Positions 44,652 to 46,972 of a stretch of DNA of 64,000 nt are shown here, in pieces. The position numbers were made by a program, and so were the translations under genes. The notes under the pieces were generated by a model, which saw only the letters and a list, made by a program, of their open reading frames with translations, made no database searches and had not been told where the DNA came from. This DNA is from Thalassobacillus devorans. GTDB taxonomy: Bacteria; Bacillota; Bacilli; Bacillales; Halobacillaceae. Each line of letters begins with the position of its first letter. Position 1 is the stretch's first letter. Where the stretch lies: assembly GCF_900176565.1 (NCBI RefSeq), contig NZ_FXEH01000005.1, positions 707,384 through 771,383 on the forward strand, read 5' to 3'.

Positions 44652-45200
44652 TTAGAACAGCATGTTGAGACCGATACCACATAAAATGCTGCCGCCCAGC
44701 AATTCACTATATACACCAAGAAAGCCTTTCGCTTTCCGCCCAAGCAGGAAGCCTGTCCATGTAAGGATCATGCTCATTACCCCAAACATCAATACCGCCA
44801 TCAGCACCCCGACTCCGGAGAGTCCAAGACTCAGACCGGCGGAAAAACTGTCGAGGCTGACGCTGAAAGCGAATAGTACAACACCGATCCCGATAGGCGA
44901 CTGGGGCTTTTTATCGTCACGGAAGGAAGAAAAAAACATGTGAGCCCCAATCCCAATCAACAACAGTCCTCCAATCAGCATTGTCATATCACTCAACGGC
45001 GCAAACACAAGCTTGCCGATAATTATTCCGATAAATGGCATGAGGATGTGAAACATACCTACTAACATACCTAAGAAAAATATTCGTTTCAATCGCATCC
45101 GCTGCATTCCCATGCCCAACGACACCGAAAACGCATCCAATCCGAGTGCGAATGCAAGTATAAATAAGGATGTGAACTCCCCTAACCAAACGGTTTCCAT
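44652..45200 (-). CDS. mntP: Manganese efflux pump MntP
   Basis: 182-aa six-helix membrane protein. Two inverted halves each carry the acidic motif: ALGLDAFSVSLGMGMQ and SVSLDSFSAGLSLG, the family's metal-binding aspartates. Exports Mn2+. The ribosome binding site GGGGAGG lies inside a terminator-like hairpin (see 45207-45245). Same place as ywlD in B. subtilis. Confidence 0.92.
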   Translation of the reverse strand: METVWLGEFTSLFILAFALGLDAFSVSLGMGMQRMRLKRIFFLGMLVGMFHILMPFIGIIIGKLVFAPLSDMTMLIGGLLLIGIGAHMFFSSFRDDKKPQSPIGIGVVLFAFSVSLDSFSAGLSLGLSGVGVLMAVLMFGVMSMILTWTGFLLGRKAKGFLGVYSELLGGSILCGIGLNMLF

Positions 45201-45206
45201 AGAAAA

Positions 45207-45245
45207 ACCTCCCCGGACATGCTATCTCACTATATGCGGGGAGGT
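45207..45245 (-). terminator. Hairpin that contains the mntP ribosome binding site
   Basis: ACCTCCCCG (45207-45215) pairs perfectly with CGGGGAGGT (45237-45245). Read on minus, the 3' arm is the mntP Shine-Dalgarno, then TTTTT, CT and the ATG. It looks like an intrinsic terminator placed after tsaC but only 6 nt before mntP. Confidence 0.75.
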
Positions 45246-45262
45246 GCTTCGATATGCTTTTA

Positions 45263-46309
45263 TCAAAATTGGTTAATTTTCTTAACAGCCGCTTTTTGCA
45301 GACGGTTCATAATTGCTTCTCCATACTCTTCTTCCGAAAAAGTTTCGCAAAGAATGACATCGACATCTGCTTTTTTGAATTCGCGGAGCGCGCTATATAG
45401 ATGTACGGCAATTTCTTTCAAATTTTCCCGGGATCCGCAAGCAAGGACTCGCTGACCTGGAAGCTGCCCGGCCAGTTCATTGCTGGCGATTATTCCGACA
45501 CGGCTGCCGTCCTGTTCAATGGTATAAAGCTGATCCTTAAAAAACTGGTCGTCTCCATCAATCAGCCATAGTGGTGCTTCTGGAGCATAGTGGGTGTATT
45601 TCATTCCAGGGGATTTTGGAGCTTCCTGTTGAGAAGCAAGAGCAGGATCCATCATAGTCGTGCCCACAGCTGCTTCCATTTGCTGCCTGGTAATGCCACC
45701 GGGACGCAGAATGATGGGGATTTCACTGGTACAGTCGACTACCGTGGACTCAAGACCAACCCCCGTTGCACCACCATCGATCAAACCCGCTATCCTTCCG
45801 TTTAAATCCTGAAAGACATGATCGGCAGTTGTCGGGCTCGGCCGCCCTGAGCGGTTGGCACTTGGAGCCGCCAGTGGTACTTCACATGCTTCCAATAACG
45901 AAAGGGCGACAGGATGGTCAGGTATTCGTACGGCTACTGTTGATAACCCGGCTGTAACATTTTGGGCAGCAGCGCCACTGCTTTCCATTACCAATGTCAG
46001 TGGCCCCGGCATGAATGCTTCCATCAATTTTTTAGCCATCTCTGGAATTTCAGTTACCAGCTGGTGCACTTGCTCAGGCTGTGCCACGTGAACAATCAGC
46101 GGGTTGTCCGAAGGCCGTCCTTTTGCTTCAAATATACGGCGGACCGCCTGTTCACTGGTTGCATCAGCGCCCAGTCCATACACGGTTTCTGTCGGAAAGG
46201 CTACTACCTCCTGTTGTTTCAGTAGTTCAGCTGCTCGCTTGATATCATTTTGGTGCTCCTCTATACGCATCGGATCTATTTTCCACACTTTTGTTTCTGC
46301 AGGCATCAT
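45263..46309 (-). CDS. tsaC: L-threonylcarbamoyladenylate synthase (Sua5/YwlC)
   Basis: 348 aa. Makes threonylcarbamoyl-AMP from threonine, bicarbonate and ATP for the t6A modification of ANN-decoding tRNAs. The YrdC domain (1-210) contains VVAFPTETVYGLGADATSEQ and KGRPSDNPLIVHV; the C-terminal Sua5 domain follows after a linker around 230. Upstream lies a DnaA-box cluster. ATG-ATG start with GGAG. Confidence 0.95.
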   Translation of the reverse strand: MMPAETKVWKIDPMRIEEHQNDIKRAAELLKQQEVVAFPTETVYGLGADATSEQAVRRIFEAKGRPSDNPLIVHVAQPEQVHQLVTEIPEMAKKLMEAFMPGPLTLVMESSGAAAQNVTAGLSTVAVRIPDHPVALSLLEACEVPLAAPSANRSGRPSPTTADHVFQDLNGRIAGLIDGGATGVGLESTVVDCTSEIPIILRPGGITRQQMEAAVGTTMMDPALASQQEAPKSPGMKYTHYAPEAPLWLIDGDDQFFKDQLYTIEQDGSRVGIIASNELAGQLPGQRVLACGSRENLKEIAVHLYSALREFKKADVDVILCETFSEEEYGEAIMNRLQKAAVKKINQF

Positions 46310-46379: not shown

Positions 46380-46552
46380 TTAATCACAAGTTATTCACAT
46401 TTTGTAGACAATTCTCTCATTAAAAAAGCCTGTAATTCCACGATTTTGTGTAAGTTTTACACAGGACACTCCATTTATCCACACAAATCACCCACAGACG
46501 TGTATAACTTTTCTCAATTGGATACATAAATCCAGGAATTCTCTGTGGATAA
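46380..46552. promoter_or_regulatory. DnaA-box cluster upstream of tsaC/ywlC
   Basis: Two perfect DnaA boxes: TTATCCACA (46475-46483) and its complement TGTGGATAA (46544-46552, inside the next gene). One single-mismatch box TTATTCACA (46391-46399) and weaker 7-of-9 sites at 46380, 46456 and 46505 surround them. TGTGTAAGTTTTACACA at 46447-46463 is a perfect palindrome with a 3-bp centre. B. subtilis is known to carry a DnaA-box cluster upstream of ywlC that titrates DnaA; conservation here is inferred from position and sequence. Confidence 0.7.
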
Positions 46553-46924
46553 GTCAGTACCTGTTGGTAACTGCTCAGAATCAGAGGGCTTGAAATCGAA
46601 ATGCCTCAACAATGTGTCCAGCTGTTGTGAGTGACTGTTTACGACAACTGACTCATATTCTGATTGGTTAATGTCTGCAATGATAGCTTGGAAAATTACC
46701 AGCAATAATTCCGGTGTCGCTTCACTGAATAAGGTCAGCTGTTTCAACTGCACCGTCGACTGTCCCATTGGTTTCAGCAGATAGCTGCCGAGCAGCATCT
46801 GACCTTCCTGGATCAAGAATCCATCCGAAAGGAGTTCGTCACGATTCCAGGTAACATTTGCCGGGTGGTTATACTTATTTTTTAATAGTTTCCAGTGTTT
46901 TTCTTCCAGCTTAATAATTTCCAT
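46514..46924 (-). CDS. Small protein at the ywlB position, unrecognised (possible remote GNAT)
   Basis: 136 aa from the ATG at 46924, preceded by AAAGGAGTG. Sits between spoIIR and tsaC, where B. subtilis has ywlB (a predicted N-acetyltransferase). The sequence has alternating strand/helix character, with VQLKQLTLFSEATPELLLVI and SEYESVVVNSHSQQLDTLLR reminiscent of the last GNAT helices, but the acetyl-CoA loop is not convincing. The ribosome site lies in a hairpin like that of mntP. Function unknown. Confidence 0.7.
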   Translation of the reverse strand: MEIIKLEEKHWKLLKNKYNHPANVTWNRDELLSDGFLIQEGQMLLGSYLLKPMGQSTVQLKQLTLFSEATPELLLVIFQAIIADINQSEYESVVVNSHSQQLDTLLRHFDFKPSDSEQLPTGTDLSTENSWIYVSN

Positions 46925-46932
46925 AACAAAAA

Positions 46933-46972
46933 CACACTCCTTTTCTATCACTAATCTATGAAAAGGAGTGTG
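46933..46972 (-). terminator. Hairpin that contains the ribosome binding site of the ywlB-position gene
   Basis: CACACTCCTTTTC (46933-46945) pairs perfectly over 13 bp with 46960-46972. On minus the 3' arm holds AAAGGAGTG, followed by TTTTT, GTT and the ATG. It follows spoIIR directly. Confidence 0.8.

Follow-up and report, generated by a model that had tools for sequence, protein, structure and literature searches.

A conserved hairpin over the mntP ribosome-binding site of Thalassobacillus devorans and a putative sporulation promoter embedded in it

Genes at the locus

The window analysed here is the whole stretch of 64,000 nt of Thalassobacillus devorans DNA, and all positions refer to it. 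On its minus strand the genes follow one another in the order spoIIR, a small gene, tsaC, mntP, a ywlE-type phosphatase gene, rpiB, a TIGR01440 gene and glyA, ywlE and glyA being named from their position and from the B. subtilis gene order. The tsaC gene (45263..46309, minus strand) encodes L-threonylcarbamoyladenylate synthase and is the origin of the read-through RNA considered below; the mntP-like gene (44652..45200, minus strand), whose counterpart in B. subtilis is ywlD, lies immediately downstream. The small gene between spoIIR and tsaC (46514-46951) had no match in either Pfam or NCBIfam, and its Shine-Dalgarno sequence is the second most buried in the window.

The mntP product matches the Pfam family Mntp (PF02659) with 126.8 bits, above the cut-off, and it stays below the NCBIfam cut-offs of both NF008546 MntP (51.6 vs 214 bits) and YtaF TIGR02840 (57.9 vs 149.6 bits). 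Its nearest named match is an MntP of T. devorans with 96% identity. The name MntP rests on the Pfam match, and the cargo of this putative pump is a presumed one. Between the two NCBIfam models, both below cut-off, the sporulation family YtaF scores slightly above the MntP equivalog for the 44652-45200 product.

Hairpin in the tsaC-mntP gap

The stop codon of tsaC is at 45263-45265, after which the minus strand reads ...CACCTCCCCG-[CATATAGTGAGATAGCATGTC]-CGGGGAGGTTTTTCTATG. A first-pass annotation of this gap had described a terminator-like hairpin burying the mntP ribosome-binding site, and both the hairpin and the burial are confirmed. Precisely, the 5′ arm ACCTCCCCG (45237..45245, minus strand) forms a perfect 9-bp stem with the 3′ arm CGGGGAGGT (45207..45215, minus strand) around a loop at 45216..45236 of the same strand, and the mntP Shine-Dalgarno sequence GGGGAGG (45208..45214, minus strand) lies within the 3′ arm. 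The run of five T's described on the 3′ side of the stem is present as well (45203..45207, minus strand), although the first of the five is paired in the stem.

The RNA corresponding to 45190-45280 folds with −25.9 kcal/mol (z −3.75), and none of 200 shuffled sequences was as stable. The mntP Shine-Dalgarno sequence is the most buried among 56 genes of the window (unpaired 0.000); since values below 0.02 were found for 4 of the 56 genes (and below 0.2 for 14), burial alone is not unique and the single site is suggestive only. The hairpin is more than a chance structure because it is conserved, both in the upstream pairing of the Shine-Dalgarno sequence and in the covariation of the arms.

Conservation in relatives

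At E ≤ 0.001, 98 of 101 genomes gave an mntP match, in some cases just a weak match to a paralogue; we read 90 mntP leaders (L001-L090). Conservation covers the loop as well as the stem. In the minimum-energy fold the Shine-Dalgarno sequence is paired upstream in 89 of the 90 relatives. The arms covary: the leaders' own arms pair with −18.25 kcal/mol vs −14.7 kcal/mol for swapped arms, a difference reached in 0 of 20,000 permutations (74 of the 90 leaders), and in an alignment of 29 leaders of one type the cells with a double change were 24 vs 11.4 in shuffled alignments (0 of 500). When 68 leaders of mixed type were aligned together (L022, L024, L046, L086 and near-identical rows having been omitted), RNAalifold gave no structure, because arms and registers differ among them; in its place we used arm swapping and the 29-sequence single-type alignment.

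The first-pass annotation had suggested that the hairpin could end tsaC transcription or block mntP translation, and had proposed to check in relatives whether stem and T-run are conserved together. Here the two part company: the upstream pairing of the Shine-Dalgarno sequence is kept in 89 of 90 leaders, while the 8 nt that follow the stem contain at least 5 T in 22 of 90 (17 of 38 leaders of the family to which the window belongs, 5 of 51 elsewhere, 1 of 90 without pairing), so that the run is not conserved outside that family and termination is at best secondary. An intrinsic tsaC terminator that overlaps the mntP ribosome-binding site by coincidence would account for a G+C-rich 9-bp stem followed by T's, and in the window's family there is no second terminator between tsaC and mntP. 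It would not account for a Shine-Dalgarno pairing that persists where the T-run does not, nor for two leaders (L015, L023) that, as judged by eye, retain the mntP hairpin in addition to a distinct terminator-like hairpin behind tsaC. We consider this explanation unlikely.

Promoter-like element inside the hairpin

The hairpin region also has a promoter-like layout, GCATA-N16-CATATAGT. The putative −35 element GCATA (45253..45257, minus strand; KCATA or KTCTA in relatives) belongs to the top-scoring site of the window for a matrix trained without Thalassobacillus. The putative −10 element CATATAGT (45229..45236, minus strand), preceded by a G at 45237, was placed by the alignment of leaders and by the matrix; it agrees with CATANNNT, the form seen in relatives, which is the sigma-E-type −10 form. 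With the start taken as 13 bases beyond the C of CATA, transcription is predicted to begin at the A of TAGC (45223, minus strand), about 23 nt before the ATG and at the 3′ edge of the hairpin loop. The loop would hold both the −10 element and the start site, and the 5′ arm would lie on the 5′ side of the start.

Among the 90 leaders, nearly all have TTCTA, GTCTA or KCATA followed by N16 and CATA, CATA being preceded by G in 98% and position +7 being T in 93%, counts that are not unbiased, as the CATA anchor was picked by a score rewarding these same features. In 37 distant leaders T at +7 was found in 26. The −35 form is GCATA in the window, ACATA or TCATA in its family and TTCTA or GTCTA in most other families. 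GCATA was present in 37 of 40 further leaders, which belong to the other families within the class, vs 5 of 56 genes of the window, the stretches searched being slightly different in the two sets. With a matrix derived from 85 leaders without Thalassobacillus, the mntP site ranks first in the 64 kb (17.0 vs 13.4).

Some results count against a sporulation promoter. The organism's own genome shows no enrichment of the bare pattern (31 matches vs 32 for a reversed-pattern control). The sigma-E genes spoIID and spoIIID of the same window are absent from the 25 best matrix matches, and their upstream regions, read as positive controls, gave no clear match. A sigma-70-type scan found nothing at the mntP hairpin site. 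According to one paper, sigma-E −35 elements have ATA and those of sigma-K have AC (PMC3789822). The TTCTA or GTCTA of most other families is without the ATA given there, and this counts against sigma-E. A sigma-K promoter was tried and rejected, the AC −35 misfitting the spacing. On balance the CATA −10 and the −35-like block at fixed spacing resemble a mother-cell promoter, most likely of sigma-E.

The first-pass annotation had also proposed a small manganese switch, having seen no yybP-ykoY motif. The absence of the motif is borne out: at E ≤ 5 the Rfam search of 40-50 kb returned 4 weak matches, none of them inside 45202-45263. The switch itself is not. A metal- or metabolite-sensing riboswitch over mntP translation would fit a conserved loop and stem before a gene of metal-exporter type, and a manganese riboswitch is described for E. 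coli mntP in PMC11647493; the conserved loop bases, however, are those of a −10 element at fixed distance from the −35, the length of the loop varies (down to a few bases in L016 and L031), nothing resembling a ligand site is conserved, and related hairpins stand upstream of two genes unconnected with metals, yunB and gerR. We regard such a riboswitch as highly improbable. Two observations had been named beforehand as speaking against the switch: an mntP promoter starting inside the hairpin, which the predicted start suggests, and a stem lost in close relatives, of which we saw the opposite. The hairpin is no manganese switch, and termination is not its main role.

The inverted repeat might instead be the DNA operator of a mother-cell regulator, SpoIIID or GerR, with the RNA hairpin as a by-product. 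The SpoIIID site is GGACAAG; the GGAC/GTCC arms resemble it, and GACAAG lies beside the predicted start in distant families. Against an operator, the arms shift jointly to unrelated sequence (e.g. in L070) with their complementarity to the Shine-Dalgarno sequence retained, and the distance between them is variable, so this reading appears improbable from the sequences compared. As a separate observation, five distant mntP leaders (L235, L247, L253-L255) carry GGACAAG or GACAAGG beside the −10 element or the predicted start.

Folding of the two RNAs

We compared the RNA reading through from tsaC with the RNA beginning at the predicted start. Over the 90 leaders, the Shine-Dalgarno sequence is on average 0.12 unpaired in the former vs 0.55 in the latter; it is below 0.2 in the read-through RNA of 73 leaders, above 0.5 in the predicted-start RNA of 57, and both hold in 42. 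In the distant set (37 of 40 leaders) the two means come to 0.22 and 0.61, respectively, and for the window's own mntP the values are 0.00 and 0.43. In 33 of the 90 leaders the Shine-Dalgarno sequence is still half or more paired in the predicted-start RNA, which counts against release by an internal start. Of 473 paired Shine-Dalgarno bases, 470 have their partner upstream of the predicted start, as in a hairpin of the sigG type.

Similar hairpins at other genes

A covariance model (R1) was built from 29 mntP leaders and run on 61 genomes, matches opposite mntP hairpins being excluded. It misses the window's own mntP site because the arms differ in the window's family, and this counts against the promoter-in-hairpin reading. 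At E ≤ 0.03 there were 14 places not at mntP, 12 of them at yunB, spoVR, spoVD (2), ylxY and gerR/rsfA-like genes (7), and the remaining 2 at a YjbE-type TerC gene and a TIGR04086 gene. The YjbE-type TerC gene, with its match upstream (L310, E 0.013), is another putative metal transporter. Besides gerR, the matched genes presumably belong to sigma-E as well. The gerR gene itself is turned on by sigma-E, as stated in PMC517825.

Upstream of gerR-type genes a good promoter was present in 10 of 30 cases, with a hidden Shine-Dalgarno sequence in 7 of those 10, and none in the rest. Upstream of yunB, CATA was found in 29 of 30 cases and, by our count, about 24 of 29 had a Shine-Dalgarno value under 0.2, with the promoter score reached in just 2 of 29; the arms covary (0 of 20,000 permutations). 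The yunB leaders (L345-L374, for example L367) carry long hairpins with perfect stems, whose loop contains CATA and whose 3′ arm includes the Shine-Dalgarno sequence.

Distribution of mntP and sporulation

We surveyed 161 genomes of the class that were at least 95% complete, requiring E ≤ 1e-15 for mntP and counting one genome with a 22.5-bit SpoIIID match among those that lack SpoIIID. SpoIIID and mntP occurred together in 104 genomes, mntP alone in 0, SpoIIID alone in 15 and neither in 42, numbers which overstate independence since the genomes are related. In the class surveyed, mntP is confined to spore formers. Three spore-less genomes of one genus in the window's family (G009, G012, G015) are without SpoIIID, gerR, yunB and mntP; in them ywlE comes immediately after tsaC, and spoIIR was not found in the vicinity. 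A congener (G018) retains SpoIIID, spoIIR, tsaC, mntP and ywlE. The genomes with SpoIIID and no mntP at the threshold used were G055, G113, G116, G123, G124, G141, G155, G156, G169, G170, G177, G193, G213, G234 and G244.

For B. subtilis, PMC10448178 reports that PywlDE-lacZ expression is abolished by glucose and that a ywlD mutant has normal manganese at T2, both as expected for a sporulation gene. In PMC7231995, a ywlD deletion is only used. We found no statement in the open-licence papers searched that ywlD or mntP is a sporulation gene.

Discussion

We consider, with a probability of roughly three in four, that the hairpin is a translation block gated by the start site, with a mother-cell sporulation promoter, most likely of sigma-E, embedded in it. 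This promoter would span the 5′ arm and the loop. The tsaC read-through RNA, having both arms, would fold and hide the mntP Shine-Dalgarno sequence, so that mntP would be left untranslated in growing cells; RNA from the embedded promoter would start at about 45223, past the 5′ arm, could not form the hairpin and would be translated. In Thalassobacillus the T-run, as a possible weak terminator, may additionally end part of the tsaC read-through RNA. Translation of mntP is probably restricted to messages begun inside the hairpin during spore formation, the gene staying silent on ordinary ones. Use in the mother cell is supported by the joint occurrence of mntP and SpoIIID, by the three spore-less congeners that have lost spoIIR and mntP and kept tsaC and ywlE, and by the genes at which the covariance model R1 mostly finds its further matches.

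A broader proposal, which we put forward tentatively and hold to be somewhat short of an even chance, is that mntP of Bacilli is a mother-cell sporulation gene whose product exports Mn2+, or an ion like it, from the mother cell in the direction of the developing spore, and that its promoter-in-hairpin is one of a class (mntP, yunB, ylxY, some gerR) blocking translation of read-through from growth operons. If this is true, mntP of Bacilli would belong to spore development instead of metal homeostasis. Such a shift would fit the loss of the gene along with sporulation and the absence of a manganese phenotype for ywlD in growing B. subtilis, and would offer a candidate route for the manganese loading of spores. 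The single case of sigG would then become a general design for silencing developmental genes downstream of growth genes.

In phage T4, the early read-through RNA of e and soc hides the ribosome-binding site, and late promoters start inside the hairpin. The layout is like that of mntP and differs in being a phage system with another sigma factor. The E. coli mntP leader, in PMC11647493 a yybP-ykoY manganese riboswitch acting with Rho, serves a pump of the same family and is likewise a case of 5′-leader control, but its aptamer has no counterpart in the Thalassobacillus mntP leader according to Rfam. Closest in logic and developmental setting is sigG (spoIIIG) of B. subtilis, for which, in PMC5942855, a large hairpin was proposed to block translation of the spoIIG-operon read-through RNA, the RNA from the sigG promoter being unable to form it; for mntP the start is a predicted one. 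Moreover, sigG is a forespore gene (sigma-F/G), whereas the mntP promoter resembles the mother-cell type. Unlike sigG, mntP is a transporter gene, the upstream gene tsaC is a housekeeping gene, and the same arrangement is found again at yunB and at some gerR genes.
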